Assembly (NCBI RefSeq): GCF_030124175.1
Contig: NZ_JASKMT010000001.1
Location: 1 to 64,000, forward strand
Length of the DNA: 64,000 bases
Source: Streptomyces sp. 549
GTDB taxonomy: Bacteria; Actinomycetota; Actinomycetes; Streptomycetales; Streptomycetaceae
Direction of reading: 5' to 3'
A program made the position numbers and the translations under genes. The notes below the pieces were generated by a model. That model had not been told where the DNA came from and searched no databases. It saw only the letters and a program-made list of their open reading frames with translations. Shown here piece after piece: positions 21,171-57,294 of the stretch. Numbering within the stretch: the first letter of the stretch is position 1; each line of letters begins with the position of its first letter.

Positions 21171-21230
21171 GGGACTCCTCCGTTGGCCGGGCAGGTGGGG
21201 GTGCGGCGCCCACAGGGTCGCCCCAGCCCG

Positions 21231-21248
21231 TCGAGCGCCGCTGGAACC
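21231..21248 (+). promoter_or_regulatory. Candidate SARP heptads in the divergent sugar-gene promoter
   Basis: TCGAGCG and TGGAACC start 11 bp apart, about 83 bp before the 4-ketoreductase start and between the divergent methyltransferase and ketoreductase genes. The second heptad is degenerate, so this is a weaker candidate. Confidence 0.35.
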
Positions 21249-21330
21249 CGGCCGGGGCTTGAGTGAATCCCGATCGCCACGTACCAGTCTTCGCTGTGCA
21301 GGGCCTGTTCTCAGCGAAGAAAGGGACAGC

Positions 21331-24638: not shown

Positions 24639-24753
24639 GATGGATCTCCTTCGTTCATCTGGGACAGGGGCCCCGGGCGTCCAGCGCACCCGTCGGACCC
24701 GGGGTCAGGTTCTTTCGTCCGGGTCGAGCCCGGCCTGATCCGGGCAAGAGTCC

Positions 24754-30208: not shown

Positions 30209-30234
30209 CGCCCAAGGACGTCATTCACATGGCA
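29109..30234 (-). mobile_element. IS630-family element A, apparently intact
   Basis: The ends TGTCGCGTGAACGAAGTCCT... (left) and its complement starting TGCCATGTGAATGACGTCCT (right) form imperfect inverted repeats, matching at 18 of 23 positions. The left flank is CTAG and the right flank is CCAG, consistent with a CTAG-type target in which one copy mutated. One complete transposase gene fills the element. It lies directly beside a second IS630-like element. Confidence 0.75.
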
Positions 30235-30238
30235 CCAG

Positions 30239-36259: not shown

Positions 36260-37417
36260 TCAGCGCCGCTTGCCCGCCGGCACCACGAAGCGCGTGTACA
36301 GCAGATCGCGGACGACGTCGTCCCCGCCCTCCACCAGACCGACGTACCGCAGGTCGCGCACCAGCTTCTCGACCGGGTGGTCGTGGGTGTAGCCGAGACC
36401 GCCGAACATCTCGGACCCCGTGGTGGCCACCTGCCAGCCAGCCTGGCCGCAGTACATCTTCGCGGCCAGCGCCGAGCGCAGCGTGCCGGTCCGGTACAGG
36501 GCGGAGGCCGGTTCGGCGCCCGACAGGTACCGGTCGAACTCCGCCGCGGCCGCGCGGCACTGGTGGCGCATCACGTCGATGAGCATTTCGATCTGGCCGA
36601 GCTTCCCGGCGAACACGGCGTTGTCCGCCAGCCGGGCGCCCTTGACCTGCTTCACCGCCGCGTACTCCATACAGAGATCGCGGACCCGGCGGGACACCCC
36701 GATCGCGGTGGAGGCGATCAGGATCCGGCTGGCGTTGAGCCCCATCTCCAGGTTGCGCAGCCCGTTGCCGCGCAGGGTGTGTGCGGCGGGCACCGAACAG
36801 TCCTGGAGCCGGACCCGGTAGGTGGCCGAGCCCCGCATACCGACCATGTCCCAGCGCTTGACGATCTCCACCCCGGGGGTGTCGCGCGGGACCAGCAGCA
36901 CCCGGAAGTCGGCCGCGTCCTCGGCGTCGCGGGCCACCACCAGCAGCAGCCCGGCCGCGTCCGCGTTGGTGGAGAAGAACTTGTCACCGTCGAGGACCAG
37001 TCGATCGCCGTCGCGCCGGAACGTGGTGCTGATCCGGGCGAGTTCGCTCCCGGCCTCCTCCTCGCTGGCGAGGATCGCGCAGAGGCCGCCGTCGCGGGCC
37101 AGCCGCTCCAGCGGCTCGCGCACCAGCTCGTCGTCGCCGCAGAGCTGGAGCATGGTGGTGCCGAGGATGGAGAGAAACGAACCGAAGGCGAACCCGGCGT
37201 CTCCGTAGGCGAGTTCGGAGACGACGTCGACGCTGTCCACCAACGGGACCCCCTGCCCCCCGTAGGCGGCGGGGATCCACCAGTTGGCCAGACCGGCCTC
37301 GTGCAGCCGGGCCGACTCCCGGGTGGGCGCCTCCGGGAGGCTGTCGAGATGGTCCGTCCGGGGCAGGACCTCCGCGTGCACGAAGGTCCGTACCCGCTCC
37401 AGCAGACCGTCCGTCAT
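36260..37417 (-). CDS. Acyl-CoA dehydrogenase family flavoenzyme
   Basis: This protein of about 385 residues has the acyl-CoA dehydrogenase fold: N-terminal helices (LANWWIPAAYGGQGVPL), FAD-binding middle (ILASEEEAGSELARIS) and C-terminal helices (MFGGLGYTHDHPVEKLVRDL). Family members desaturate acyl thioesters or act as oxygenases in antibiotic clusters. Its gene lies 26 bases after the type II ACP gene, and a GTG start at 37447 would even overlap the ACP stop. That spacing suggests it acts on an ACP-bound chain, perhaps the saturated branched side chain. ATG 37417 is preferred because of a GGGAGG site. Confidence 0.8.
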   Translation of the reverse strand: MTDGLLERVRTFVHAEVLPRTDHLDSLPEAPTRESARLHEAGLANWWIPAAYGGQGVPLVDSVDVVSELAYGDAGFAFGSFLSILGTTMLQLCGDDELVREPLERLARDGGLCAILASEEEAGSELARISTTFRRDGDRLVLDGDKFFSTNADAAGLLLVVARDAEDAADFRVLLVPRDTPGVEIVKRWDMVGMRGSATYRVRLQDCSVPAAHTLRGNGLRNLEMGLNASRILIASTAIGVSRRVRDLCMEYAAVKQVKGARLADNAVFAGKLGQIEMLIDVMRHQCRAAAAEFDRYLSGAEPASALYRTGTLRSALAAKMYCGQAGWQVATTGSEMFGGLGYTHDHPVEKLVRDLRYVGLVEGGDDVVRDLLYTRFVVPAGKRR

Positions 37418-37443
37418 CGGAGCCTCCCGGCCGTCGTCGCCGC

Positions 37444-37701
37444 TCACGCCGCCTGGGAGAGCTGCTGGTTGAAGACGTCGAGGAAGTCCCTGGGCGTCTC
37501 GATCTCCGATATCCCGTCCTCCGGGAGCTTGAGCTTGAAGTGCCGCTCCAGGCTGCTCGTGGTCGCGATGACGGCGAGCGAGTCGAAGCCCAGGTCGGTC
37601 AGTCGGGTGTCCAGGATGTCCCCGGAGAGGTCGATCGTCTCGTCCTCCCCCATCGCGCTCTTCAGGAACGTCCTCAGCTCGTCGATCGTCAGTTCGGCCA
37701 T
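37444..37701 (-). CDS. Type II PKS acyl carrier protein
   Basis: The 85-residue ACP has the phosphopantetheine attachment Ser41 in DLGFDSLAV. Its four-helix pattern (ELTIDELRTFLKSAMG at the start) is typical of aromatic PKS carriers. It holds the growing polyketide for KS-alpha/CLF. It lies between the aromatase/cyclase and acyl-CoA dehydrogenase genes and on the opposite strand to KS-alpha/CLF, an unusual split of the minimal PKS over two operons. Confidence 0.93.
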   Translation of the reverse strand: MAELTIDELRTFLKSAMGEDETIDLSGDILDTRLTDLGFDSLAVIATTSSLERHFKLKLPEDGISEIETPRDFLDVFNQQLSQAA

Positions 37702-37775: not shown

Positions 37776-38711
37776 TCAGCGGGCCTCGACGTACTCCTGG
37801 GCCCTGGCCAGCGTCGCCCGGCTGTTCGCGCCCAGGGAGTCGCGTACGGCCTTGCGGGCCGCTTCGAGTGACGCGGGCGGGTTGGGCAGCGCCGCGATGC
37901 CCTCGGGGTCGAGGATCACCCGGTGCCGGGAGGTCACCTCGACCACACCGTCGGCGGGCGAGGTGAGCAGCCATTCGCCGTTGTGCGCCTGGAGCGCGGG
38001 CGGCAGCTTCACCTGCTTGTAGACGATGCGCCGCTGCGGCTCGCAGACCCGGCCCGAGACGGTCGTGTGGACCGAGCCGTCCGGTGAGCGGGTGTCCATC
38101 TCCATGTGCTGGAGACCCTCGGCGTCCTCGCGGAGTCCGATGCGCAGCACGTGCGGGATACGGTCCGGCCAGTGCCGCACGTCGTACAGGAAGTCGTACG
38201 TGTCCTTCAGGGAGCCGCGGATGGTCAGCGAGTCGGAAAAGTCCAGCAGGAGTTCCCGCTCGCTCTCACCCCGCTCGACCGCCCGGCGCAGGTGCTCCAG
38301 TTCGGATGTGCTGTTGTCCTCCACCGCCCGTGCGATACGGGCGAGTTGGTCCGGGTCGTCGCCGGTGGCGCGGTAGAAGTGGTCGAGGACGACCGTGCTG
38401 GTCCCGTCGCCGTGCTCCGTCACCGACCACGCGCCGCCCATCGCGGCGACCGGGTCGGTGGGAGTGGCCTGCTCGAAGTCGACCCGGTGCTCCTCGGGCC
38501 GCAGCCGGCGACGGGACTCCCAGGTGCGGATCTCGTCGTTGGCCATGGCCCAGATCCGGATGCGTTCCTCACGGTCGTCCCCCGACACCCGCTCGGCCCG
38601 GAGCGTGGGCGGGAAGTACAGCGGCCACAGCCCGACGTCGGACACGACGCGGTAAACGGCGTCCGCCCCGGCGGGCACAGTGATCGTGTGGGTCACCTCG
38701 GTCTTGCTCAT
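37776..38711 (-). CDS. Didomain aromatase/cyclase
   Basis: The 311-residue protein has two SRPBCC helix-grip domains (residues about 1-150 and 160-311; VTHTITVPAGADAVYRVVSDV, then LTIRGSLKDTYDFLYDVRHW). It matches the didomain ARO/CYC family (ActVII, DpsF-like) that closes and aromatizes the first ring of ketoreduced polyketides, consistent with the ActIII-like ketoreductase in the cluster. It follows the type I PKS gene after 90 bases and precedes the ACP gene by 74 bases on the same strand. Confidence 0.92.
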   Translation of the reverse strand: MSKTEVTHTITVPAGADAVYRVVSDVGLWPLYFPPTLRAERVSGDDREERIRIWAMANDEIRTWESRRRLRPEEHRVDFEQATPTDPVAAMGGAWSVTEHGDGTSTVVLDHFYRATGDDPDQLARIARAVEDNSTSELEHLRRAVERGESERELLLDFSDSLTIRGSLKDTYDFLYDVRHWPDRIPHVLRIGLREDAEGLQHMEMDTRSPDGSVHTTVSGRVCEPQRRIVYKQVKLPPALQAHNGEWLLTSPADGVVEVTSRHRVILDPEGIAALPNPPASLEAARKAVRDSLGANSRATLARAQEYVEAR

Positions 38712-38801: not shown

Positions 38802-41800
38802 TCACGCCTCGCCGAGCGCCTTGATCATGGACTCGACCAGTGCGCGCGGCGTCGGGTTCTTCAGGACCACGTCGGCCGGCAGCCGCAGCCCGGTGGCCGC
38901 GTTGAGCCGGTTGCGCAGGTCGACGCTGAGCAGCGAGTCGAAGCCGAGGTCCCGGAAGGCCTCGTCCGTCCCGACCGCGGAGGCGTCACCGTAGCCGAGC
39001 ACGTCGGCGGCGTGGGAGCGGACGAGCGTCAGGAACGCCTCTTCGGAGGGCTGTTCCGTGGGAAGCGCCCCGGTCTGCCGTGCCTGCCCCGCCTCCCGCG
39101 GCCCAGGGGCGGGGAGGTCGCGGCTCCCGGTCGGGCCGGGTGCGTCGTCCGGGCCGGTCAGTTCCTCGAACAGGCGGGCGGCCCTGCTGCCCGGCCGGAT
39201 GCCGGTGAGCGCGGGCCGAAGCGCCACCCGGAGCGATCCCGCCGAGGCGAGCGCCTCGTCCAGCAGCCGCAGCGCGCGGTCCGTGGCGATGGGCGCGATC
39301 CCGATACCGGCCAGGGCGCCGACGGCCCGCTCGGACAGGTGCGAGGTCATCCCGGTCTGCTCCGCCCACAGCCCCCAGGCCACCGAGGTGGCCTCCAGGC
39401 CCTGGGCCCGCCGGTGCTGGGCGAGCGCGTCGAGGAAGGTGTTGGCCGCCGTGTAGTTGGCCTGGCCCGGACTGCCGATCACTCCGGACGCCGAGGAGAA
39501 CAGGACGAATGCCGACAGGTCGAGATCGCGGGTGAGGTCGTGGAGGTGCCAGGCGCCGTGTGCCTTGGGAGCCGCCACCGCGCGGAGCCGGGCGGGTGTG
39601 AGCTGGGTGAGCGGTGCGTCGGCGAGCACCCCCGCGGTGTGGAAGACGCTGCCGGGCGGGTTCTCGGCGATCACCTTGGCAAGCGCGGCCCGGTCGGTGA
39701 CGTCGCAGGCCACCACGGTCGCCTCCGCCCCGGACGCGGCCAGTTCGGCCCGCAGTTCCGTCGCTCCCGGGGTGTCCGGGCCGCGGCGGCTCAGCAACAG
39801 CAACCTGCGGGCGCCGTGCGCGGCGACGAGGTGGCGGGCCACCTGGGCGCCCAGCCCGTCGGTACCGCCGGTGACGAGTGCGGGCCGGTTCGGGTCGACG
39901 GCGCGCGGCATGGTCAGGACGAGCTTGCCGCGCTGCTTGGCTCGGCTCAGCATCCGCAACGGCGTCCGGCCCTCGTGGACGTCCCAGGTGCGTAGCGGCA
40001 GATGAGCCAGGGCGCCGCTCTCGAACAGGGCGATCAGCTCGTCCAGCACCTCGCCGATGCGGTCGGGGGAGATCCCCAGGATGTTGTAGGCCCGGTAGGT
40101 GATGCCCGGGTGGTCGGCCTCGGTCCGCCCGATGTCGCGGATGTCGGTCTTCCCCATCTCCGCGAACCGTCCGCCCGGGGCGAGCAGCCCCAGCGAGGCG
40201 TCGATCGCTTCCTTGGCGAGGGAGTTGAGGACGACGTCCACGCCGCGTCCACCGGTGACGGCGCGGAAGGCGTCGGCGAAGTCCAGGTCACGGGAGGAGG
40301 CGATGTGATCCTCGGGCACGCCCCAGGCGCGCAGGGTGTCCTGCTTGCCGGCGCTCGCGGTGGCGAACACCTCGCCGCCCAGGTGACGCACCAGTTGAAT
40401 CGCGGCGAGTCCGACGCCACCGGTGGCGGTGTGGATGAGCACCGACTCGCCGGGGCGGACGTCGGCCACCTCGACCAGGCACTGGTAGGCGGTGATGAAC
40501 ACGATCGGCACGCTCGCGGCCTGGGCGTGGCTCCACCCGGCCGGGAGCGGTTTGACCATGCGCTCGTCGGCGACCGCGAGCGGGCCCAGGGAGCGTTCGA
40601 AGACGCCGAACACCTGGTCCCCGGCGACGAACCGGGTGACGTCGACGCCGGTTTCGACGACGACGCCCGATCCTTCGCTGCCCATGGTCTTCTCGCTGGC
40701 CACCAGACCGAGGCCTACCGCGATGTCGCGGAAGTTGAGCCCGGCCGCGCGGACCTCGATGCGGACCTCCCGGGGACCGAGGGGGGCCTCCGCCTCCGGG
40801 TGGGGCAGCAGGGCGAGGTGGTCGAGGGTCCCCTTGCTGGTCACGTCGAGCCGCCAGGCGCGGTGGCCGTCCGGCTCCCGGAGCGTGCCGCCGGACGGCA
40901 TCCGCAGTCGGGGGCGGAGCAGTACCCCGGCCCGGACCGCCACCTCCGGTTCGCCGGTGGCCAGAGCACGCGGCAGCGCCCGGAGGGACGCCGGGTCGTC
41001 GTCGATGTCGATCAGCTGGAAGGCGTCGGGGTGTTCCGCCTGGGCGGACCTGACCAGCCCGGTGATCACCGAGGAGGCCAGGTGGCGCACCGGTTCGCGG
41101 TCGACGGCGGACTGCGCGCCCCTCGTGAGCACGGCCAGGCGTGCCGAGGCGAACCCGGGGTCCGCCAGCCAGCTCTGGAGCAGGTCGGTCGTCTCCCCGG
41201 CGAGCGCGTCCACATCGGCCGTCAGCGTGTCCTCGCTCCCGTCGCCGCCGAGAGCGGCGACGAGGACCGCGGGCGCGGGCCGGGCGACCCCGTCGAGCCC
41301 GGGGAAGTCGTGCGCCGCGCCCAGTCCAGGGGTGGACAGCGCCGCCCAGGCGTCCGGGGCGAGCGCGTCGGGGGTCTCCGGGACCGGGGCCCAGTGCAGG
41401 GCGAACCCCGCTCCCTCCTCGTCGAGGCCGCCGGGCGCCGCTTCCTCCGCGAGGGGGCGCATCGTGAGCGAGGCGACGGTGGCGACGGTCCGGCCCAGCG
41501 TGTCGGCACAGTGCACGGTGACCTCGTCGCCCTCGGTGCTGATGCGCACCCGCAGGTCACGGGTCGTGGAAGGCACGAGGGTGACGTCCCGCCAGGCGAA
41601 GGGGACCACCAGTTCGCCGCCGCTCTGGAGGATCGCGGCGTGCAGGGCGGCGTCGAGCAGCGCCGGGTGCGCGGTGGCTCCGGAGCCCTCCGCAGTCCCG
41701 TCGGGCAGGGTCACCTCGGCGAAGATGTCGGAGCCGCGCACCCACATCCGGCGCAGCCCGGCGAAGGCCGGACCATAGCCGTAACCGCGCGCGGCCAGCC

Positions 41801-44800
41801 GAAGGTAGGCGTCGCTCAGGTCGATGCGGGAGGCGTCGGCGGGCGGCCAGGCGACCGAGGGCGCCGTGTCCGCCTGCGGGCTCCCAGGGGCCAGCACGCC
41901 GGAGGCGTGGGCCGTCCAGGCTTCCGCGTCGGCGGGGCGGGCGTGGACGGTGAGACGGCGGTGGCCCGCGGCGTCCGCCGGTTCCAGCAGCACGCGGAGA
42001 TCGGCCGCGGTGTCCTCGGGGGAGATCAGCGGAACGCCCAGGGTCAGCTCCTGGACGACGGGCAGCCCGGCCGCCCGTCCCGCCTCGGCGAGCAGCGCCA
42101 GGAAGGCCGTTGCCGGGACGAGCGCGGTGCCGCGCACCCGGTGGTCGGCGAGCCAGGGGTGACGCGCCGGGTCGAGACGCGCGGCGAACACCGTCGCTCC
42201 CGTCGGCAGTTCGAGTGACCGCAACGCGAAGTCGCCCGTGTCCGGGCGGGCTTCGGAGGCGGGTACGGCTTCCGGGGCACTCGCCCAGTAGCGGCTGCGG
42301 TCGAAGGCGTAGGTCGGCAGCACGGCCCGCCGGCCTGGCGGCTGGAGCGGGCCGAGGTCCACGGGGACGCCGACGGCCTGGGCGGCGGCGGCCGAGGCGA
42401 GGAACTGCCCGGGGCCTCCGCTGCCGCGCCGGACGGTGTCCAGGACCGAGCCGCGCACTCCCGCGGCCTCCAGGATCGCCTGCAGACCGAAGGTGAGGAC
42501 CGGATGCGGGCTGACCTCGACGAACACCCGGTGTCTGCGGTCCACGAGCCGCTGGACGGCCGCCTGGAAGCGCACGGGATTGCGCAGGTTCTCGAACCAG
42601 TACGAGGCGTCCATGGCCAAGGCCTCGATCGGCTCGCCGGTCAGCGTCGAATACACCGGCACGGTCCCGGGGCCCGGGGCGATGCCGGCCAGGCCCTCGG
42701 CCAGCGGTTCGCGCAGGACGTCCATGGCCTCGGTGTGCGAGGCGTAGTCGACCTCGATGCGCCGGGCGTCGATCCCGCGCGCCTCGCAGGCGGCCAGCAG
42801 GTCCTCCAACGCCTGGACACCGCCCGCCACGACCGTGCTGGAAGGCCCGTTGAGCGCGGCGATCCCGGCCTTCCCGTTCGTGCCGTCCGCCGCGTCCAGC
42901 AGTCCCTGGGTCGCTTCCGCGCCCAGCGGCACGGAGACCATTCCGCCGCTGCCCGCCACCGTGTGCAGGGCCTTGCTCCGCAGGGCGACGATTCGGCACG
43001 CGTCGTCGAGGGTGAGCACCCCGGCCACGTGCGCTGCGGCGATCTCACCCTGCGAGTGGCCGACGACGGCCGCGGGCCGCACCCTGGCCGCCTCCCACAT
43101 CCGGGCCAGCGACACCATCACCGCGAACAGCGCGGGCTGGACGACGTCGACGCGGTCCAGGTCCTCGCCGCGCAGCGCGTCGGACAGCCGCCAGTCGACA
43201 TACGGCTCCAGGGCCCGTTCGCACGCCTCGACGCTGCGGCGGAACGGCTCGGACCGGTCCATCAGCTCCCGGCCCATCCCCCGCCACTGCGACCCCTGGC
43301 CGGGGAAGACGAACACCGGTCCGGCGGAGCCCTGCCGGGCCTCGCCACTCAGCACGGTCGGCGATCGGTAGCGGCCGGGCGAGGTGGGGGCGTAGGTCCC
43401 CGAGGCCAACTGGCCGAGTCCGCGGGCGAGGTCAGCGGCGTCGTCGGCGACCACCGCGGCCCGGTGGGCGAAGCGGGTACGGGAGCGGAGCACCCGGGAG
43501 ACGTCCTCGGGCGCGGTGTCCGGGGCGTCGGTGAGGAATGCGCCGAGGGCCGCCGCCTGGGTGCGCAGGGCGTCGGGGCTCGGGGCGGACAGCTGCCAGA
43601 CGTGGGGGCCTTCGGCGGGGGCGTCCTCCGTCGACTCCGACACGGGGGCCCGGACGGCCTCCTCCAGGACCACGTGGGCGTTGCTTCCGCTGATGCCGAA
43701 GGAGGAGACCCCGGCACGCCGGGGGCCTTCCTCCGCCCGGTTCCAGTCACGGGCCTCGTGCAGCAGGGCGAGACCGCTGCTCGCCCAGTCCACGTGCCGA
43801 CTCGGGGTGCCCGTGTGCAGGGTGGCGGGCATGACCCCGGCGCGCATCGCTTGCACGACCTTGATCACGCCGCCCACGCCGGCGGCGGCCTGCGCGTGTC
43901 CCAGATTGGACTTCAGCGAGCCGAGCCACAGCGGGCGCTCCGCGGTACGGCCCGAGCCGTAGGCCGCCGCCAGCGCGCGGGCTTCGATCGGGTCGCCCAG
44001 TTCGGTGCCGGTGCCGTGCCCCTCCACCAGGTCGACGGTGTGCGGGTGGAGCCCCGCCCGGTCCAGGGCGAGCGAGATGACCTTCTCCTGGGCGGACTTG
44101 CTGGGCGCGGTCAGCCCGTTGCTCGCACCGTCCTGGTTGGTGGCGCTGCCCCGGATCAGGGCGAGGATCTCGTGGCCGTGGGCGAGGGCGTCCGACTGCC
44201 GCTCCAGCAGGAGCAGGCCGGCGCCCTCCGACCAGGCGGTGCCGTTGGCGTCGTCGGAGTAGGAGCGGCAGCGTCCGTCCGGGGACAGTCCGCCCTGGCG
44301 GCTGAAGTCGATGAACATGCCGGGGGTCGGCATCACCGCGACCCCGCCGGCCAGCGCGCGGTCGCACTCGCCCTGGCGCAGCGCCTGTACGGCGAGGTGC
44401 AGGGCGACCAGCGAGGAGGAGCAGGCGGTGTCGACGGTGAGTGCGGGGCCGCGCAGGCCGAACCAGTAGGCGATGCGGCCCGACGCGACGCTGGTGGTGC
44501 TGCCGGTGATCCGGTAGCCGCCCGCGTCCTCGTTGTCCTCGTGCAGCCGGGGCCCGTACTCCTGGGCCATCGCGCCGACGAACACGCCGGTGTCGCTGCC
44601 GGCCAGCGCGTCCTTGTCGAGGCCGGCCCGTTCGAAGGTCTCCCAGGCCACTTCGAGGAGCAGCCGCTGCTGCGGGTCCATCCCGGCGGCCTCGCGGGGT
44701 GAGATGCCGAAGAACTTGGCGTCGAACAGGTCCGCGTCGTGGACGAACCCACCGTGCCGCGTGCTGGAGCGGCCGTCGGCATCGGACAGGTCCCAGCCGC

Positions 44801-44954
44801 GGTTGCCGGGGAACGGGGAGATGGCGTCGCCGCCGGACGCGACGAGCCGCCAGAGGTCCTCCGGGGACCGTACGCCTCCCGGATACCGGCAGCCCATGGA
44901 CACGATGGCGATCGGTTCCTGGCCCTCGTGGGGAGCAGGTATTTCCTGGGTCAT
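38802..44954 (-). CDS. Type I PKS, one fully reducing module: KS-AT-DH-ER-KR-ACP
   Basis: The 2050-residue module has KS (Cys near residue 176, DTACSSSL), AT ([14 protein letters not shown] near 636 and YASH near 738, the methylmalonyl-type motif), DH ([11 protein letters not shown] near 933), ER ([15 protein letters not shown] near 1513), KR ([11 protein letters not shown] near 1693, active-site Tyr in [10 protein letters not shown] near 1835) and ACP (Ser in DLGFDSLL near 2005). There is no thioesterase. All domains look intact, so one methylmalonyl extension with full reduction is predicted, giving an alpha-methyl acyl-ACP. Only about 17 residues precede KS, so there is no classical docking helix. 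The start is ATG 44954; the open frame further upstream is a shadow. Confidence 0.93.
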
Positions 44955-45004: not shown

Positions 45005-48000
45005 CTACAGCGGCGCGTCGCTCCCCAGGGCCTCGATCAGGGCCCCCGGGGTGGGGTGGTCGAACAGCAGGGTGGTGGGCATGGACCGCCCGGTGGCGCG
45101 GGTGAGCACCGTGCGCAGGGTGACGGCCATCCGGGAGTCCAGGCCGAGCGCGTTGAAGTTCTCGTGCAGGTCGAGTTCGGTGGTCGGGGACAGCCCGAGG
45201 GTGCTCAGGGTGCTGCTGACGACCAGTTCGTAGGGGTCGCCGGACCACTGCGCGGAGGGTTCGGCGGGCAGCGGCGCGGTGGGCGGCACGGTGTCGAGCC
45301 AGAACGGCTCGCGACGGAAGGGGTAGGGCGGCAGGTCGGTGCGGCGGGCGTGCGGGCCGTGGACGGCCCCCGGATCGATCGGCGCGCCGAAGACGTAGGT
45401 CGCGGCGGCGGTCCCGGCGACGCCCGCCACCTCGTCCCGGGTGGCCATCGGCGCACTGAAGAGGGCCTCGCCCAGGTCCACGGTCTCCGCCGCCATGTTC
45501 ACCAGGCCCCGCCCGGGACCGATCTCGACGAAGAACCGGGCGCCGAGGTCGTGCGCGGTGCGCAGCGCGGGCCCGAACCGCACGGTGGCGCGCAGGTGGT
45601 GCGGCCAGTGTTCCGGGCGGTCGATCTCCCCGGGGATCACCGGCCGGCCGGTGACCGCCGAGACGATGCGCGGGCCGGTGGGCGGATGCCAGGTGAGCCC
45701 CTCGGCCAGGGCGAGCAGTTCGTCCTGGATCGGTTCCATCAGCGGAGAGTGCCCGGCGACGGCGATCCGCAGTCGGCGGGTGCGGCGGCCCAGCTGCTCG
45801 AAGTGGGCCGCAGCCGCGAGGGTGGCCTTCTCCTCGCCGGAGAGCACGAGGGACTGCGGGCTGTTGACGGCAGCGACGGAGACCGGTCCGGGCTCGGGGC
45901 CGAGCAGGTCCCGCGCCTCCCTCTCCGCGGCCTGTACGGCCATCATCGCGCCGCCGGGCGGCAGGGTGTTGATGAGCCGGCTGCGGCGCGCGACGAACAG
46001 CGCCGCGTCCTCCAGGGACAGGACGCCCGCCACGTGCGCGGCGGTGATCTCGCCCTGGGAGTGGCCGAGCAGCAGGTCCGGCGCCATGCCCCAGGACTCG
46101 AACAGCCGGTAGAGGGCGGCCTCCAGGGCGAACAGCGCGGGCTGGGCGTGGTGGCGCCGGTCGGGCAGGTCGTCGCGGCCCCACAGGATGTCGGCCAGGC
46201 TCGCGCCGAGGGCCGGCTCCATCGCGGCGCATGCCGCGTCGAAGGTGCGGGCGAACACCTCGAACTCCTTGTGGAGCCGCTGGCCCATGCCGGGCTGCTG
46301 CGCCCCCTGCCCGGGGAAGAGGTAGGCGGTGAGGCCCTCGCCGCGGGTTCCCTCGACGACGCCGGGGGCGTCGGGGTGCGGGCCGTCAGCGAGCACCCGA
46401 AGCCGGGCGACCAGCTCGTCGAGGTCGCTCGCGACGACCGCGCCCCGGTGGTGCAGGAATGCCCGGGTGGTGACGGAGGAGAGACCGATGTCGGCCAGGG
46501 ACACCGGGTCCGCTGCCGGGTCCCGGCGCGCGGGGTCGAGGGCGTCGGCGAAGGCGGCCGCGTGCCGGCGCATCGCCGGGTCGCTGCGGCCGGACACCAG
46601 GACGGGCACAGGGACGGCGGCACCCGCCTCCGGGCTCGCAGGGACGGTCCCGGCGGGGTGTTCACCCAGCACCACATGGCAGTTGGTGCCGCCGAGGCCG
46701 AACGAGGAGACACCGGCGATGGACGGCTCCGGCCGTCGAGGCCACGCTCCACGGGCCGCGCACACCCGCAGCCGGTTCGCGTCGAGGTCGATCGCCGGGT
46801 TGGGCTCACGGTAGTTGAGGCTGGCCGGCAGCTCGCCGTGGTGCAGGCCGAGCGCGGTCTTGATGAAGCCCGCGATGCCCGCCGCGCCCTCCAGGTGGCC
46901 GATGTTCGTCTTGACCGAGCCGACCCACAGGGGGAAGTCCGACGGCCGCCCGGAGCCGTGCACCGCGCCCAGCGCGGACGCCTCGACCGGGTCGCCCAAC
47001 GCCGTGCCCGTACCGTGCAGTTCGACGTAGGAGACGTCTTCGGGCGCGACGCCCGCGCGCCGGCAGGCGGCGGTGAGCACCGACTGCTGGGCCTCGCTGC
47101 TGGGCGCGGTGAGGCCGGTCCGTCCGCCGTCGCTGTTCATGGCGCTGCCCAGCACGGTGCAGTAGATCCGGTCGCCGTCGGCGAGCGCTCGCTCCAGCGG
47201 CTTGAGGAGCAGGACGCCGGCCCCCTCGCCCCGGACGATCCCGTCGGCCCGGGAGTCGAACGTGTGGCACCGCCCCCGGGGCGAGAGGGCGCCGAGCGCC
47301 TGGACGGCGTCGTCGCCCTCGGCGGCGAGGTTGAGCTGCACCCCTGCGACGAGGGCCGCCGAGCACTCCCCCGCCTCCAGCGACCGCAGCGCTTGGTGGA
47401 GGGCGCTGAGCGACGAGGACTGCCCGGTGTCGACGGTCAGGCTGGGGCCGGCGAATCCGAGGAAGTGGGAGAGGCGGTTGGCCAGGAACGCCCGGCCGGT
47501 CCCGGTCATCGTGTAGGCGGTGGCGATCCCGGCGGCCCGGCCCATCAGGGAGTAGTCGTCGGCGCAGTTGCCGACGAAGACGCCGACAGGCTCCCGGGAC
47601 AGGGTGTCGGGGGCGGTCCGGGCGTCCTCCAGGGCGTGCCAGGCCAGTTCGAGGAGCAACCGCTGCTGGGGATCCGTCGCGGCGGCCTCCGGCGCGGGCA
47701 TCTGGAAGAACTCGGCGTCGAAGAGCTCGACGCCGTCGAGGTAGCCGCCGTCGCGGCGCCCGGTCCGCCGGCTCCCGGCCGGGCCGATGGCCTCGCTGCC
47801 GGAGATCAACAGCCGCCAGAACGCGTCGAGGCCGTCGGCGCCGGGGAACCGGCAGGACATGCCGACCACCGCGACGGGTTCCTGCTGCCGGGGCGTGGGT
47901 CGTCGGGTCGGGTTCTGGGACACGGTCTCCTCCGGATTCGACGGTCGGGCGGGCGGTGTCAGCGTGCGCGCGGGCGCTTCCAGCGGCGCGAACAGCCGCT

Positions 48001-48964
48001 CCACGGCCGCTGCGGCCTCCCGGCGGTCGGCCTCGTCGCCCCGGCACCGGTCGGGCAGCAGCGGCAGCACGGAGCTGCGGCGGGCGACCACGGACGGCTG
48101 TCTGCGGGCCAGGACGCTGAGGCTGTTGCCCGGTCCGGCCTCGACCAACAGACAGTCGTGGTCGGCCAGCAGCCCGGTGAGTGTGGGGGCGAAATGGACG
48201 GTCGCGGCGGCCTGCCCGGCCCAGAAGTCCGGGTCCACCGCGTCCTGGTCGGTGAGCAGGCCCCGGGTGTAGGCGGAGTACAGGGGCAGTTGCGGGGGCC
48301 GCAGTCCGGTGGCCCGCCAGTCCGGCAGGGAGGCCGTCACCGCCTCGGCGACCAGGGGGCTGTGGAACGCCTGCCGGGCGCGTACCTTGCGGCAGATCAG
48401 CCCCCGTTCCTCCAGCGTCCGAGCTGCCTGCGCCAGCGGGTTCTCCGCGCCGGCCAGCAGCAGTTGCCGGGGGGCGTTGACCGCCGCCAGGTGCACATCA
48501 GCGTTCAGGAGGTCGGCGACGTCGGCCTCCGAGGCCGCCACGGCGAGCATCCCGCCCGGTGGGGTGTCGGCGAACTGCCGGACGCGGTCGCGCAACAGCC
48601 GGACCCCGTCGGTGAAGTCGAGCACTCCGGCCAGGGTGGCGGCCGCGAGTTCCCCGACGCTGTGTCCGATCAGGGCCACCGGGCGCACGCCGCGCTCCAG
48701 CAGCATCCGGCCGAGCGCGTGGTTCACCGCGTACAGCAGGGGCTGGGCCACCGACACGTCGTCGTACAGGGGTGAGGGGCGCTCGGCCAGCCACTCGGAC
48801 CGCAGCGCGGGTCCGGCGTCCTCGTACAGCGTGAAGGCGCGGTCCATCCAGGCGGTGAACGACTCGTCGTGGCCGTAGAGGCCCGCCGCCATCCTGGGGT
48901 GCTGGGCGCCCTGTCCGGCGAACATCAGGGCGACGGGCCGGGTGGTCGGGGGCAAGAGCGGCAT
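45005..48964 (-). CDS. Type I PKS loading protein: AT-KSQ-AT-ACP
   Basis: The 1319-residue protein has a first AT (residues about 10-300, [10 protein letters not shown] near 103, QAFHSP near 200), then a KS (from about 365) whose active site reads [11 protein letters not shown] with Gln for Cys (near 516) while His motifs ([17 protein letters not shown]) stay. A second AT ([14 protein letters not shown] near 971, [10 protein letters not shown] near 1071) and ACP (GLDSRMAV, Ser near 1273) follow. KSQ domains decarboxylate malonyl- or methylmalonyl-ACP to give acetyl or propionyl starters. The extra N-terminal AT is unusual and may serve the downstream PKS or the type II ACP. ATG 48964 has an AGGAAAGG site. 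It is followed after 50 bases by the extending module gene. Confidence 0.92.
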
Positions 48965-49038: not shown

Positions 49039-49161
49039 GCAGGGGCTCCATCCGGCCTTGAGCCGGTTTTGACGTCGCCGCCACAGACTCCGGGCCCGGG
49101 GGCCGTATCCGGCTTCACCCGCCAGCGACGATCCGGCCGAGGGTGCACGAGGGAGGATCCG

Positions 49162-50235
49162 GTGAACGTCACGGACGTGTTCATTTCCGGGGTCGGGCTT
49201 CATCTGCCGCGTGCCCTGCCCGTCGCCGAGGTGGCGCGGCAGGGTCTCGCGGACGAGCGGACGATCCGGCGCAGCCGGATGCGTTCGGTGTGCGTCGGCG
49301 AGGAGTCGGGGCCCGAGATGGCGGTTCGAGCGGCCCGGGAGGCGTTGCGCTCGGCGGGAGCCGACCGGGAGGACATCGGCCTGGTCCTGCACGCCAGTAC
49401 GTACTACCAGGGGCACGACCTCTGGGCGCCCGCCTCCTATGTCCAGCGGGAGGCGGTGGGCGGCTCCTGCCCGGCGATGGACGTCGGGCAGCTATCCAAC
49501 GGCGGTATGGCGGCGATGGAGTTGGCGGTCGCCGCGCTGCTGTCCGGCCGGGCTCCGCACAGTGTTCTGATCACCACGGGCGACCGGTTCGCCCTGCCCG
49601 GGTTCGACCGCTGGGAGACCGACCCGGGGACGGTGTGCGGGGACGGCGGAACGGCGGCCGTCCTGTCCACCGCCGACGGCTTCGCCCGCCTGCGCAGCCT
49701 GGTGACGGTCTCCGATCCGACGCTGGAGTCGATGGGCCGGGGCGACGACCCGTTCGGTACGACGCCGCTGGGCGTCCGCTCCCCGGTCAGTGTGGCCGGG
49801 CACCGGGCGCGACTGGTCGAGCAACTCGGCATGGGCGAGCTCATCGACCGCCTTCAGGTCGGGCAACGTGAGGCGTTCGAGCGGGCGTTGGCGGACGCGG
49901 ACGTGAAGGCCGACGGCATCGCCTGGTTCGTGTTGCCCCATCTGGGCCGCCCGAAGATGGACTTCCAGTTCTTCGACGCACTGGACATCGACCCCGACCG
50001 GAGCACCTGGTCGTGGGGGTCCGGGGTGGGGCACCTAGGTGCGGGCGATCCCTTCGGGGGGCTGGCCCATCTGGTGCGGACCGGCGCCCTGGCCCCCGGA
50101 CAGTTCTGCGCCCTCGTCAGCGCCGGCGGAGGTTTCGCCTGGTCGGTGGCGGTCCTGGAGATCGTCGGCCTCCCGACAGCCGGGACGCCCTCCCCTTCTG
50201 CCCCTGAGACAAGGAAGTCGAGCGCATCGTCATGA
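49162..50235 (+). CDS. KSIII-like acyltransferase with Ser at the active site (DpsC/CerJ type)
   Basis: The 357-residue thiolase-fold protein resembles KSIII starter enzymes (FISGVGLHLPRALPV, then LVLHASTYYQGHDLWAPASY). The nucleophile region reads DVGQLSNGGMAAME, with Ser112 where FabH-type enzymes have Cys. DpsC in daunorubicin biosynthesis has the same Cys-to-Ser change and primes the PKS with propionyl; CerJ-type relatives are acyltransferases. It therefore probably transfers the starter acyl group to the aromatic PKS. GTG 49162 follows GGGAGGATCC. The stop overlaps the next gene (ATGA), starting a plus-strand operon of five genes. Confidence 0.88.
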   Translation: MNVTDVFISGVGLHLPRALPVAEVARQGLADERTIRRSRMRSVCVGEESGPEMAVRAAREALRSAGADREDIGLVLHASTYYQGHDLWAPASYVQREAVGGSCPAMDVGQLSNGGMAAMELAVAALLSGRAPHSVLITTGDRFALPGFDRWETDPGTVCGDGGTAAVLSTADGFARLRSLVTVSDPTLESMGRGDDPFGTTPLGVRSPVSVAGHRARLVEQLGMGELIDRLQVGQREAFERALADADVKADGIAWFVLPHLGRPKMDFQFFDALDIDPDRSTWSWGSGVGHLGAGDPFGGLAHLVRTGALAPGQFCALVSAGGGFAWSVAVLEIVGLPTAGTPSPSAPETRKSSASS

Positions 50236-51791
50236 CAACCCGTGAAACCCCGCCCGACACCGGGCCCGACCCGAGCTCGAACGCCCCGGGCGAGAACGCG
50301 CTGACGGCGTTCCACGAGCAACGGCCTCAGTGGGCCCCGGCGCCTGCCGGTGGCGGTGCCGCCTCGGCCTGGCTTCCGGCGGCCGCACCGACCCACGCAC
50401 CCGTCGAGCACGCGGTGGTGGAGGTGCCGATGGACTACACGGACCCCGCGGGCCGCAGGCTCTCGATCGCCGTCAGCCGGCTCCGGGCCAAGGACCCGGA
50501 GCGGCGTCGCGGCATCCTGCTGCTGGTCAACGGAGGCCCCGGGGGCTACTTCGGGCTCGGTCGGGGCTTTCCCGCCGCGCTGGCGCACACCCGGCTCACC
50601 GAGGTCTACGACCTGATCGGCTTCGACCCGCGCGGTACCGGGGACTCCACGCCACTGCGCGGCGAGATCACCCCGACGGCCGCGCCGTTCGACTCACGCC
50701 CCCCGGACTCCGCCTTCGCGGTGATCTCCGAGGACTTCCGCATCCGCGAGGAAGGCAACCTGCGGGCGGGCGGCGAGCTGCGTCCGCACGTCAACACGCC
50801 CAACACCGCCCGGGATATGGACGTGATCCGCGCGGTGCTCGGCGAGGACAGCCTCAACTACCTTGGCTACACCTACGGCACCTACCTCGGCGCGGTCTAC
50901 GGAGCGCTGTTCCCCGACCGGCTGGACCGCAGCGTCCTGGACTCCTGTGTGCATCCCGACTGGTCCTGGCGCGAGCAGGCCATGGCCCAGGGGCGCGCCA
51001 ACCGGGACAACGTGGAGGCCTGGGCCGCCTGGACCGCGCGGCGCGAGGGCCACTTCGGGCTCGGGACCTCCGGCGAGCAGGTGCTCGCCGCGGTCGAGGC
51101 GGCCGCCGCCGCGATCACCACCACCCCGGGCGCCGTCCCGCTGCGCTCGCTGTTCGACGGGGCGATGGGGTCCCGCTCGGCCGACCGCTCGAAGTGGCGG
51201 GAGCTGGCGGACCTGGTGGCCGACGTCCGGACGGGCGGCGCCGAGGCGGCCGGGAAGTGGCTCGCGAACGAGAAGGTGTGGCCGCCGAGCGAGACCGAGG
51301 GCGAGACCCGGTGCGGGGTGCTCGACGCGGTGACGGTCGAGAAGGACTGGCCGACGGACCTGGAGGTCTACTACGAGGACATGCGCCGCTACCGGGAACA
51401 CTTCCCGTACGGCTACGGCGTGATGCGCGCCCAGACCTGGGTGGGGGCGTTCCGTACGTTCACCCCGCCGGAGCGGCCCGTGGAACTGTCCGCCCGCGGC
51501 TACCCGGCCGGGCTGGTCGTGCACGCCGAGGGCGACCCGACCGACCACTACGAGGGCGGGGTCGCGATGGCCGCCCGGCTCGGGCACCGGCTGATCACGG
51601 TCGCCGACTCGGGCCAGCACGAGATCTATGGCTTCGTCCGCAACCCGGACGTGGACAGGCTCGTCGAGGGCTACTTCGTCGACGGCTTCCTGCCCGACGA
51701 CACGTCCTGCCCGAGCACGGTGAGCCGCCCGGACGTTCCGGCGGACGGCGACGCCGGCTCAACCCCCCGTGAACAGAGGAAGGAATCATGA
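50232..51791 (+). CDS. Alpha/beta hydrolase, TAP-like family, with atypical nucleophile
   Basis: The 519-residue protein looks like tripeptidyl-aminopeptidase-type hydrolases: the oxyanion segment LLLVNGGPGGYFG, the nucleophile elbow, the acidic region VVHAEGDPTDHYEG and a late His in ADSGQHEIYGF. The elbow reads GYTYGTYLG, so Thr214 replaces the usual Ser of GYSYG. It may use Thr, have lost hydrolase activity, or work as a non-hydrolytic cyclase or transferase. It overlaps the KSIII gene and the FAD monooxygenase gene by four bases on each side, so it is firmly in the biosynthetic operon. Confidence 0.82.
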   Translation: MTTRETPPDTGPDPSSNAPGENALTAFHEQRPQWAPAPAGGGAASAWLPAAAPTHAPVEHAVVEVPMDYTDPAGRRLSIAVSRLRAKDPERRRGILLLVNGGPGGYFGLGRGFPAALAHTRLTEVYDLIGFDPRGTGDSTPLRGEITPTAAPFDSRPPDSAFAVISEDFRIREEGNLRAGGELRPHVNTPNTARDMDVIRAVLGEDSLNYLGYTYGTYLGAVYGALFPDRLDRSVLDSCVHPDWSWREQAMAQGRANRDNVEAWAAWTARREGHFGLGTSGEQVLAAVEAAAAAITTTPGAVPLRSLFDGAMGSRSADRSKWRELADLVADVRTGGAEAAGKWLANEKVWPPSETEGETRCGVLDAVTVEKDWPTDLEVYYEDMRRYREHFPYGYGVMRAQTWVGAFRTFTPPERPVELSARGYPAGLVVHAEGDPTDHYEGGVAMAARLGHRLITVADSGQHEIYGFVRNPDVDRLVEGYFVDGFLPDDTSCPSTVSRPDVPADGDAGSTPREQRKES

Positions 51792-53035
51792 CTCGCGTGC
51801 TCGTCATCGGCGGCGGGATCGCCGGGGCCGTCTGCGCCATCGCCCTCCAGAAGGCGGGCTTCGAGCCCACCCTCTACGAGGCCTTCGACCACACCGCCGA
51901 CGGCATCGGCAACTTCGTCAACATCGGCCCGAACGGCATCGACGCCCTGGACAGCATCGGCCTGGGCCACCTGGTCCGGGACAAGGGCTTCGACACGCCC
52001 GCCATCGCGTTCTACAGCGACACCGGCCGGGCGCTGACCGGCGACGTCGCCACCGACCGACTGGCGGACCGGGGCCAGATCATCCAGACGATCCGCCGCT
52101 CCGACCTCTACGTCGGGCTGCGGGACGAGGCGGCGCGGCGCGGGATCCCCATCGAGTTCGGCAAGCGGATCGTGGACGCGAGCGCCGACGGCGACCGGGT
52201 GCGGGCGGTCTTCGAGGACGGGACGCACGCCGAGGGCGATCTTCTGGTGGGGGCGGACGGTCTGCGCTCGCAGGTCCGCCGGATCATCGACCCCTCGGCT
52301 CCCTCGCCGCGCTATCTGGGGGTGCTCAACGCCTTCGGCCGCGCCGAGGGGCTCCAGTTGGAGGGCCCTCCGGGCGTCATCCGGATGTTCTTCGGCAAGC
52401 GGAGCTTCTTCAGCTATACCAAGCACCCCGACGGCAGCCTCTGGTGGTTCGCCAACCCGCCGCGCGCCGAGGAGCCGGACCAGGAGCTGTTGCGGCTCAG
52501 GACGGCGACCTGGCGCGGGGACCTGCTGCGCCTGTTCGAGGGCGACCGCACTCCGGCGGCCGCCATCATCGGGGCGACCCGGGACCTCGCACCGCCGTCC
52601 CCGACGTACGACCTGCCGCCGGTGCCCCGCTGGCACCGCGACCGGATGATCGTGATCGGTGACGCGGCGCACGCGGTGTCCCCCACGGCGGGCCAGGGCT
52701 GCGCGGTGGCCATGGAGGACGGGGTCGTGCTGGCCAAGTGCCTGCGCGACGCGCCCTCGCACGAGCAGGGATTCGTCAGCTACGAGGCGGCGAGGCGCAA
52801 GCGCGTCGAGGACATCGTCGCGCAGGGGAAGTACAACAACGAGGGCAATATCCGGCGCGGCCCGGCGGGCCGTCTGCTGCGCAACTACTTCATCTCCAGA
52901 GCCTTCCGCGGGACCGCGGGCAAGGGCGACCCCACCTGGATGATGAGCCATCACATCGACTGGGACGCCAAGGAGCCGGCCGTGGACGGGGTCGCCGCCA
53001 CCGGGCCCGGATCGGGGCTACGCACCCAGGGATGA
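51788..53035 (+). CDS. FAD-dependent aromatic monooxygenase
   Basis: The 415-residue group A flavin monooxygenase has the N-terminal FAD motif VLVIGGGIAGAVCAIALQKAG, the DG motif (LLVGADGLRSQVRR near residue 160) and the GD motif (VIGDAAHAVSPTAGQG near residue 290). Relatives hydroxylate or epoxidize aromatic polyketides using NAD(P)H and oxygen. The substrate cannot be read, but hydroxylation of the core or oxidation of the side chain is likely. It is translationally coupled to the hydrolase gene by an ATGA overlap. Confidence 0.9.
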   Translation: MTRVLVIGGGIAGAVCAIALQKAGFEPTLYEAFDHTADGIGNFVNIGPNGIDALDSIGLGHLVRDKGFDTPAIAFYSDTGRALTGDVATDRLADRGQIIQTIRRSDLYVGLRDEAARRGIPIEFGKRIVDASADGDRVRAVFEDGTHAEGDLLVGADGLRSQVRRIIDPSAPSPRYLGVLNAFGRAEGLQLEGPPGVIRMFFGKRSFFSYTKHPDGSLWWFANPPRAEEPDQELLRLRTATWRGDLLRLFEGDRTPAAAIIGATRDLAPPSPTYDLPPVPRWHRDRMIVIGDAAHAVSPTAGQGCAVAMEDGVVLAKCLRDAPSHEQGFVSYEAARRKRVEDIVAQGKYNNEGNIRRGPAGRLLRNYFISRAFRGTAGKGDPTWMMSHHIDWDAKEPAVDGVAATGPGSGLRTQG

Positions 53036-53120: not shown

Positions 53121-54344
53121 ATGACGACCGAATCCCGTTGCCCCGTCGCCCACACCCCCTTCCCCTACGCGCGCCAGGGGCCGTTCACCGCGCCCGCGCA
53201 GTACCCGGAAATGATCGAGAAGGGTGTCACGCAGGTGACACTCGCCCAGTCGGGCCTGCGGGTCTGGACGGTGACCGGCTACGCCAACATCCGCAGTCTG
53301 CTGACGGACCCCCGGGTGAGCGCCTCGCGCAGACTGCCCGGCTTCCCCTTCTACTTCATCGCGCCGCCGGAGTTCCGCACGGAGACCTCCTTCATCGGGT
53401 ACGACGCGCCGGAGCACACCCGGGCGCGGGGCAAGGTCGCCGCCGCGTTCACGTACCAGCGGGTGCAGAAGATGCGCGGGCGCATCCAGGAGGTCGTCGA
53501 CGAACACATCGACCGGATGCTCGGCCTGGCCCCGCCGGTCGACTTCCACCGGCTGTTCTCGCTGTCGCTGCCGACGACGGTGATCTGCGAGATGCTGGGC
53601 GTCCCGCAGGACGACCACGACTTCATCATCGAGCACAGCAACAACATGTTCGGCGGCCGCAGTACGCCCGAGCAGCGGCGGGCCGCGATCATCGAGGTCA
53701 ACGCCTACGTCGAGAAGCTGGTGCGGCTCAAGACGGAGACGCCCGGCGAGGACGTCATCAGCATGGCCATCGCGGCGTACGAGGAGTCGGGCGAGGAGTA
53801 CACGGAACGCGATCTGGTCAACATGGTCCGGATGCTGATGAACGGCGGTCACGAGACCACCGCGAGCATGATCTCCTTCGGCACTGCCGCCCTGCTGGAG
53901 CACCCGGAACAGCTGGCGGAGCTGCTGGCCGACCCGGAGAAGATGATCGGTCCGGCCACCGAGGAACTGCTGCGCGTGGTGACGATCGGCGACGTGGGGG
54001 TGCCCCGGGTCGCGTTGGAGGACATCGAGATCGACGGCACGGTCATCCCGGCCGGCGACGGGATCCTGTGCCTGCTGCTCACCGCCAACCGGGACCCCGA
54101 GGTCTTCCCCGACCCCGACGAGCTGATCCTGAGCCGGGGCAGCCGCAAGCAGGTCGGGTTCGGGTACGGGGCGCACCTGTGCATCGGCGCGGAGCTGGCC
54201 CGGTTGGAGATGCAGGTCGTCTGGACGACGCTGTTCCGCCGGATCCCTTCGCTGCGGCTGGTCAAGCCGTTGGATGAGGTGCCCCGCAAGGAGGGCGCGA
54301 TCGTGTACGGCGTTCACGAGCTGCCCGTCACCTGGGACGTGTAA
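53121..54344 (+). CDS. Cytochrome P450
   Basis: The 407-residue bacterial class I P450 has the I-helix oxygen-binding motif NGGHETTASM, the E-x-x-R motif in TEELLRVV and the heme loop FGYGAHLCIGAELAR with Cys354. It needs ferredoxin and reductase partners that are not encoded nearby. Position after the FAD monooxygenase suggests a late oxidation, for example epoxidation or hydroxylation of the side chain. ATG 53121 has an AAGGAGA site. The next methyltransferase gene starts six bases after its stop. Confidence 0.93.
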   Translation: MTTESRCPVAHTPFPYARQGPFTAPAQYPEMIEKGVTQVTLAQSGLRVWTVTGYANIRSLLTDPRVSASRRLPGFPFYFIAPPEFRTETSFIGYDAPEHTRARGKVAAAFTYQRVQKMRGRIQEVVDEHIDRMLGLAPPVDFHRLFSLSLPTTVICEMLGVPQDDHDFIIEHSNNMFGGRSTPEQRRAAIIEVNAYVEKLVRLKTETPGEDVISMAIAAYEESGEEYTERDLVNMVRMLMNGGHETTASMISFGTAALLEHPEQLAELLADPEKMIGPATEELLRVVTIGDVGVPRVALEDIEIDGTVIPAGDGILCLLLTANRDPEVFPDPDELILSRGSRKQVGFGYGAHLCIGAELARLEMQVVWTTLFRRIPSLRLVKPLDEVPRKEGAIVYGVHELPVTWDV

Positions 54345-56145: not shown

Positions 56146-57294
56146 CTAGGCCGTCCTGTACCGCAGGACGAGGTCCTCGAGGACCGGCACGACCGCGCCG
56201 GGCGAGGGCTGCCGGGCGATCTCCTCGCGCACCTCCTTGGCCCGCTTGGCGTAGCCGGTGTCCTCCAGCAGGGTGCGGCAGGAGTCCAGCAGGCTCTGCG
56301 GGGTCAGGTCGGCGGGCGGCAGGTGGCGCACCGCACCGAGGTCGGCCAGCCGGGCGATGGCCTCCAGGGGCTTACCGCGGCCGGGGACGACGACCTGGGG
56401 GATGCCCTGGGCGAGGCAGGCCATCATGGTGCCGGGGCCGCCGTGGTGGACGGCCGCGTCGCAGCCGGGCAGCACGGAGGTCAGCGAGATCCAACCCGCG
56501 GCGACGACCTTGTCCGGGAGCGTGCCGAGCTTGTCGACCAGGTGGTCGGCGACCGCGACGACCAGCTCCGCGTCCAGGGACGCGAGGGCCTGGATCATCT
56601 GGCCGAGCATCGGGATGCCACCGATCTGCGGCTGGACGGACCCCAGGGTTACCAGCAGCCGGGGCCGGTTGCGGGGCTCGTGGACCCAGCCGGGCACGGC
56701 ACCCGGCTCACCGAAGGGGACATACCGTACGGGCTGCGCCCCGGGCGCCGGATCGCCGAGCGCCGGGGGGCAGTTGTCGAGGACCAGGGCGGGCGGGGGC
56801 AGCCTGTCCAGCCCCAGGCGCTCCAGTTCCGGGGCCATTTCCCGCTCCACCGCGTCGGCGACAGGCAGATCGCCGGGGCCGACGATGTGCTTGACCCATG
56901 GGACGCCGTGAATCCCGGCGGCGATGGCCGGGGCCGCGAAGGAGTACGAGTCGGTGATCACGAGGTCGGGCCGCCAGCGCCCGACGAGCTCGACGGTGGC
57001 GTCGACGGTCCGCGCGGCCAGCCGGCCGAAGCCGGCACCGACGCCCGCGGCCATGTCGGCGTCGTTGTCGGGGACGCGGACCGGCCGGCCCTCCCGGTCC
57101 AGGGCCATCACCTCGCCCATGTCCAGGGGGCCGTGCACCGGCGTCATGGCGAGACCGGAGCCGCGCACGGCGGATTCGAAGCTTTCGGGGACCGTCACGA
57201 GCACCTCGTGACCGGCGGCGCGCAGCGCCCAGGCGATGGGCACGACCGGGAAGTACAGCGGGTGGGCAGGCCCTGTGGCCACGAGAATCTTCAT
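56146..57294 (-). CDS. Glycosyltransferase, UGT/MGT family (second of two)
   Basis: The 382-residue GT-B enzyme begins KILVATGPAHPLYFPVVPIAW and carries the donor-site signature AAVHHGGPGTMMACLAQGIPQVV near the C terminus. It belongs to the same GT1 antibiotic glycosyltransferase family as the enzyme at 23.5-24.6 kb but is clearly a separate paralogue. It is downstream of a 3,5-epimerase-like gene and upstream of a 4-ketoreductase gene, suggesting the three handle one sugar. No activator protein gene is seen. A TCGAGCG heptad with a partner 11 bp away lies just upstream. Confidence 0.9.
   Translation of the reverse strand: MKILVATGPAHPLYFPVVPIAWALRAAGHEVLVTVPESFESAVRGSGLAMTPVHGPLDMGEVMALDREGRPVRVPDNDADMAAGVGAGFGRLAARTVDATVELVGRWRPDLVITDSYSFAAPAIAAGIHGVPWVKHIVGPGDLPVADAVEREMAPELERLGLDRLPPPALVLDNCPPALGDPAPGAQPVRYVPFGEPGAVPGWVHEPRNRPRLLVTLGSVQPQIGGIPMLGQMIQALASLDAELVVAVADHLVDKLGTLPDKVVAAGWISLTSVLPGCDAAVHHGGPGTMMACLAQGIPQVVVPGRGKPLEAIARLADLGAVRHLPPADLTPQSLLDSCRTLLEDTGYAKRAKEVREEIARQPSPGAVVPVLEDLVLRYRTA

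Follow-up and report, generated by a model that had tools for sequence, protein, structure and literature searches.

Kidamycin is an antitumour antibiotic, and the loading protein for its biosynthesis in Streptomyces sp. W2061, Kid13, has the domain order AT1-1-KSQ-AT1-2-ACP, with a QAFH motif in the first acyltransferase (AT) and a VAGH motif in the second (Heo et al. 2023, PMC10646177). Disruption of kid13 abolished production of both kidamycin and rubiflavinone C-1, and in the same 2023 study the protein was mutated so that each AT was inactivated separately. Deletion of AT1-1, or Ser-to-Ala replacement within it, sharply reduced the long-chain product and reduced the short-chain products too; after Ser-to-Ala replacement in AT1-2 only a trace of one short product was left. 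The authors concluded that AT1-2 loads malonyl-CoA and ethylmalonyl-CoA, and that AT1-1 helps (PMC10646177). AT1-1 was also reported to be 79% similar to HedF, which itself reportedly plays no part in formation of the hedamycin side chain (PMC10646177). The main text of that paper makes no mention of ZhuC or of editing thioesterases.

The AT1-KSQ-AT2-ACP architecture is therefore already known, having been printed in 2023, and the novelty implied in a preliminary description of the locus examined here falls away. What is new relative to the published work is the kinship of AT1 with the discrete ATs of type II polyketide synthase (PKS) clusters, which bears on its origin, and a natural series of relatives in which AT1 is split off, fused or remote, or in which AT2 is missing.

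The loading protein and its gene cluster

The window analysed is a 64,000-nucleotide stretch of the genome of Streptomyces sp. 549 (contig NZ_JASKMT010000001.1, positions 1 to 64,000), and its relevant features are collected in Table 1. The frame encoding the 1319-residue loading protein is uninterrupted, and its Pfam content comprises two Acyl_transf_1 stretches, the N- and C-terminal ketoacyl-synt domains, KAsynt_C_assoc and PP-binding. This bears out the order AT-KSQ-AT-ACP read earlier from the sequence, and the motifs GHSVGE, QAFH, VDTGQSSS, GHSQGE and VAGH were all located as then described. Replacement of the active-site Cys of the KS by Gln, followed by AT2 and an ACP, defines a KSQ-type loading module; the single frame AT1(QAFH)-KSQ-AT2(VAGH)-ACP, together with a partner extender module containing a methylmalonyl (YASH) AT and an ER, places the locus with Kid13. 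A fused frame of equal length, with 95-99% amino-acid identity per domain, is present in Streptomyces rubiginosohelvolus JCM 4415, so the architecture is neither a chance effect nor an artefact of assembly. On its motifs, its architecture and the gene order given in the papers, the loading protein is probably the orthologue of Kid13.

Table 1. Features of the window relevant to polyketide priming, with their positions and the basis of each assignment.
Feature	Position	Strand	Basis
Dual-AT loading protein AT1-KSQ-AT2-ACP, 1319 aa, probable Kid13 orthologue	45005..48964	-	Open frame; Pfam; architecture and motifs of PMC10646177
AT1, discrete-type AT domain	48065..48940	-	Pfam (Acyl_transf_1, 120.5 bits, 48131-48925); GHSVGE 48650-48667; QAFHS 48359-48373; tree 99/99; model pLDDT 93.6
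Retained putative ribosome-binding site and GTG (GGAGG-AGACC-GTG, codon 348), AT1/KSQ junction	47921..47935	-	Homologous to start of separate KSQ gene in relatives
KSQ domain, Cys-to-Gln decarboxylase	46655..47881	-	Pfam; VDTGQSSS 47411-47434
AT2, loading AT	45470..46324	-	Pfam (Acyl_transf_1, 192 bits, 45476-46324); GHSQGE 46049-46066; VAGHS 45746-45760; clade with KSQ-module ATs 98/97
Loading ACP	45026..45205	-	Pfam; LGLDS 45134-45148
Extender module KS-AT(YASH)-DH-ER-KR-ACP, probable Kid14 orthologue	38802..44954	-	Pfam; motifs; PMC10646177
DpsC-like KSIII, Ser for Cys (GQLSNGG), divergent from loading gene	49159..50235	+	E 1e-94 to DpsC 4xs7
Type II ketosynthase KS-alpha	33747..35015	+	
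Chain length factor (SEQAGG)	35012..36229	+	
Acyl-CoA dehydrogenase-like protein, possible side-chain desaturation (predicted role)	36260..37447	-	
Type II ACP	37444..37701	-	
Didomain aromatase/cyclase	37776..38711	-	
Type II ketoreductase	31279..32058	-	
FAD monooxygenase, Kid11 position	51788..53035	+	Pfam and gene order
Cytochrome P450, Kid10/HedR position	53121..54344	+	Pfam and gene order
Glycosyltransferase, Kid7 position	56146..57294	-	Pfam and gene order
Glycosyltransferase, Kid21 position	23496..24689	-	Gene order

The gene order in the window is that of the published kid cluster, in which names have been given to methyltransferases (kid4, kid9), a thymidylyltransferase (kid5), an epimerase (kid6), glycosyltransferases (kid7, kid21), a P450 (kid10), a monooxygenase (kid11), kid13 and kid14, a cyclase (kid15), an ACP (kid16), a chain length factor (kid18), a KS (kid19), a KR (kid20) and a 4,6-dehydratase (kid28) (PMC9452638, PMC10646177). 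Beside the PKS and oxygenase genes of Table 1, the region between 10 and 62 kb encodes an NDP-hexose 2,3-dehydratase, an aminotransferase, two N-methyltransferase-like proteins, one C-methyltransferase, a DrrA/DrrB-like exporter and a UvrA-like ATPase; both of its glycosyltransferases are EryCIII-like. The locus thus has the marks of a pluramycin/kidamycin cluster. A type II minimal PKS is combined with type I starter genes, the genes for two aminosugar pathways include C- and N-methyltransferases, and there are two glycosyltransferases. Its related N-methyltransferase genes (54350-55075 and 20457-21416) flank the PKS genes, which fits two dimethylamino sugars. Two transposase-like ORFs, of IS630 type as judged by eye, interrupt the cluster at 29105-31310, between the SARP regulator and ketoreductase genes.

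Among solved structures the best relative of the KSIII is DpsC, with Ser where FabH has Cys, and this replacement is present in all the relatives examined. A crotonyl-CoA carboxylase/reductase homologue (76%), encoded elsewhere in the genome and outside the cluster, is a possible source of ethylmalonyl-CoA. The match (G000:C1:366131-367462) crosses one TGA, which is either an edge effect or a sign of a broken gene.

Relationships and integrity of AT1

The preliminary description had proposed a phylogeny of both ATs and a DpsD-like role for AT1. In a 65-row AT tree, built from sequences other than HedF, DpsD, ZhuC, EncL and AknF, AT1 fell inside the family of discrete ATs from type II PKS clusters, the HedF/DpsD kind, in a clade of 38 rows (support 99/99); AT2 joined the ATs of KSQ loading modules (98/97), and a third clade (100/100) took in the extender AT. 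Clades this distinct rule out that AT1 is a copy of AT2 or a type I AT of the extender kind. FabD is ruled out likewise, since the genome's own FabD-like protein shares 32% identity with AT1 and joins the tree as a distant outgroup. The DpsD-like idea is strengthened by the grouping with discrete ATs, by the adjacent Ser-type DpsC-like KSIII, and by the published similarity to HedF (PMC10646177), through which kinship of AT1 with HedF and DpsD themselves appears likely. In one respect AT1 departs from those stand-alone enzymes, being fused in the window and in S. rubiginosohelvolus (L001); in the other close relatives read it is stand-alone.

Loss of the catalytic Ser or His, which had been named beforehand as evidence against a function for AT1, was not observed: both residues (Ser102 and His201) are conserved without exception across 28 homologues, and an inactive AT1 can on this ground be rejected with some assurance. 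The Arg at Ser+25, which binds the malonyl carboxylate, is present in 27 of the 28. That AT1 should be vestigial or purely structural is very improbable. The authors of the Kid13 study did caution that the AT1-1 deletion phenotype might stem from instability of the protein, but a single Ser-to-Ala change acted much like the deletion (PMC10646177), the catalytic residues are conserved as described, and between the two fused clusters AT1 differs by 15 silent and only 6 replacement codons out of 322.

The structure prediction for AT1, run without three plasmid-collection rows, gave a complete AT fold. A fold search with this model returned AT domains, KSQ-AT didomains, the acyl hydrolase PksD and MCAT with similar TM-scores, so that a loading and an editing enzyme are not separable by fold.

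Split and fused forms among relatives

The AT1 sequence was used as the query against GTDB contigs and against 393 genomes of the genus. The contig scan returned the collinear, fused cluster of S. rubiginosohelvolus JCM 4415 (98% for AT1) and matches of 69-71% in Streptomyces sp. ISL-1, Crossiella and Actinocorallia populi. The genus search gave four further close matches (65-71%) and many at about 50%, mostly frames of stand-alone size; large type I PKS frames matched AT1 only from about 200 bits downward. In the 50% group a KSIII lies within 1.5 kb at 11 of 25 loci, and most of the others are accompanied by a type II KS, CLF or ACP. Plasmids searched by near-DNA matching yielded short matches only, all of them inside the KS region.

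Seven of the 65-71% relatives (L002, L004, L007-L010 and L036) have AT1 as a gene of its own, immediately upstream of KSQ. In L002 and L004 the end of AT1 and the start of KSQ share a few bases; the KSQ start overlaps the end of AT1 or comes just after it in L007-L009, and it lies 51-77 bases past the AT1 stop in L036 and L010. L036 is located on a 173-kb plasmid of Streptomyces sp. NBC_01591, as a cassette of AT1, KSQ protein, extender PKS and KSIII with its own ccrA. The extender AT of L004 (A. populi) has, near 15879, VGASQGE for the usual GHSQGE, the His beside the catalytic Ser being replaced by Ala. Among the clusters read, the fused form is limited to the window and the near-identical L001; over about 990 genomes, in partly overlapping and non-exhaustive samples, it was found elsewhere only in S. 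rubiginosohelvolus, to which the published strain W2061 is to be added. The fusion would have arisen in the lineage of the window by loss of the stop codon between adjoining AT1 and KSQ genes.

The window and L001 lack a stop codon at the AT1/KSQ junction and carry the sequence GGAGG-AGACC-GTG there; translation from this GTG gives VSQNP...EPVAVVG, which corresponds to the beginning of the Actinocorallia KSQ protein (VSENPPPEPLAVVG). It is tempting to ask whether the fusion still works as two in-frame genes, with KSQ-AT2-ACP made mostly from the internal GTG (47921-47923) and the full-length protein as a minor form, but we regard this as rather doubtful. The GTG does align with the KSQ start of relatives (VSQNP here, VSENP in L004), and the two fused clusters do not differ at this site despite a diverged linker, which has one silent and six replacement codons out of 39. 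Comparable sites, however, occur by chance at 6 of the 166 in-frame start codons of the two genes (about 4%), so that the function of this one is only putative, and the frame is uninterrupted in both clusters.

Possible roles of AT1

That AT1 can load the ACP of a KSQ protein in trans is best supported, albeit indirectly, by relatives without AT2. In G013, G226 and G110 (L040, L042 and L044) the KSQ protein consists of KS, linkers and ACP (Pfam detects KS and ACP only); the post-AT linker remains, the gene immediately upstream encodes a discrete AT1, and no AT other than this one and the extender AT was detected within the sequence read around the loci. Loading by AT1 would account for these systems, but the acyl group might come from the extender AT or from FabD instead.

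The AT1 of Crossiella sp. S99.2 (L068-L070) stands alone among type II PKS genes, beside an aromatase, about 23 kb from a fused loading-plus-extender protein of 3051 residues (KSQ-AT-ACP-KS-AT-...-ACP, with DSGQSSS). Such a location might suggest that the target of AT1 is the type II ACP or the extender module and not its own ACP. This is unlikely: FabD usually supplies type II PKSs, AT1 directly precedes the KSQ gene in the seven relatives described above, and the extender module has an intact YASH AT of its own, so that the earlier proposal of loading of the neighbouring module by AT1 is not supported. HedF, it should be said, is likewise remote from hedT (PMC10646177).

Alternatively, AT1 might be an editing acyl-ACP hydrolase that frees the loading ACP or the type II ACP of acetyl groups and so allows a longer primer to compete. 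DpsD, ZhuC and EncL are mutually homologous, and for ZhuC and EncL removal of acetyl from ACP has been demonstrated (review PMC12664062); the discrete AT family of AT1, moreover, has KSIII and type II PKS genes as its neighbours. Loss of an acetyl editor should mainly remove the long-chain product, as loss of AT1-1 from Kid13 did, but it should also raise the level of short-chain products, and these fell too in the AT1-1 mutants (PMC10646177). Loading by AT1-1 may explain the little short product that the AT1-2 mutant still yields; the Arg that binds the malonyl carboxylate is nearly always kept, as it may be in ZhuC too; and the AT2-less relatives need some loading AT. The fall in short-chain products and the AT2-less relatives thus favour loading, while the selective loss of long-chain product is what editing predicts. 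Editing as the role of AT1 is possible, though on balance not probable.

Taken together, the discrete-AT kinship, the separate gene in relatives and the AT2-less KSQ-ACP proteins make it probable that AT1 is functional as an accessory loader or a primer editor and is not the AT of an extender module. The best-supported division of labour is that AT2 is the main loader and AT1 assists. A general loading role for AT1 has against it the reported absence of HedF from hedamycin side-chain formation (PMC10646177). The preliminary suggestion that the two ATs choose different substrates holds in part: the AT1-1 and AT1-2 mutants of the orthologue do differ in phenotype, but AT1-2 loads both malonyl- and ethylmalonyl-CoA, and AT1-1 is accessory with an effect mostly on the long-chain product (PMC10646177).

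Proposed priming scheme and comparison with known systems

We consider it likely that priming follows the kidamycin type, with AT1 as a fused discrete AT of the HedF/DpsD kind and probable secondary loader of the same ACP, editing being an alternative or additional role. In this scheme AT2 would charge the loading ACP with malonyl or ethylmalonyl taken from CoA, and KSQ would decarboxylate the bound group to acetyl or butyryl; the extender module would add one methylmalonyl unit with full reduction, giving 2-methylbutyryl or 2-methylhexanoyl; and the DpsC-like Ser-KSIII would hand this primer to the type II PKS, desaturation and oxidation of the side chain coming later. The similarity of the KSIII to DpsC and the retention in AT1 of Ser, His and the carboxylate-binding Arg support this scheme, within which we infer the AT1 reaction, the KSIII hand-over and the exact product of the strain. 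A bolder version, which we advance as speculation and think somewhat unlikely, is that a type I KSQ loader captured a discrete type II PKS AT through a single stop loss, keeping the old start so that fused and free forms coexist, and that this AT is a true trans loader, the sole one in the AT2-less relatives, which competes with AT2 to set the primer mixture.

The discrete ATs of aromatic PKSs are common but little studied, and recognition of the extra AT as a fused HedF-type enzyme turns into a testable question whether they load or edit primers, for which the split, fused, remote and AT2-less relatives are natural controls. An AT acting on a KSQ-ACP in trans, if this proves true, would be useful for starter-unit engineering of pluramycin-like antitumour compounds.

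Of the known systems, Kid13 is the closest, sharing AT-KSQ-AT-ACP, the QAFH and VAGH motifs, the neighbouring genes and a methylmalonyl extender module with ER; at the level of the published description no difference was found. The myxobacterial dual-AT loading modules (ajudazol, aurafuron, chondramide and gulmirecin; PMC10646177) likewise have two ATs in the loading protein, but begin with an N-terminal ACP that is absent here. The fungal non-reducing SAT-KS-MAT-ACP PKSs, of which CTB1 was matched by the fold search, also have an N-terminal AT, a KS, a second AT and an ACP, but their KS is condensing and iterative whereas that of the window is a KSQ, and the likeness is one of layout only. 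HedF and HedT of hedamycin share with the window a discrete-type QAFH AT, a KSQ loading module and a hybrid type I/II PKS; there, in contrast, hedF is separate, far from hedT and reportedly inactive in side-chain formation, and the Crossiella layout, with its remote AT1 and fused KSQ protein, is of this kind. DpsD, ZhuC, EncL and AknF are discrete ATs beside the priming KSIII in type II PKS clusters, from which AT1 of the window differs in being fused to a type I loading protein.
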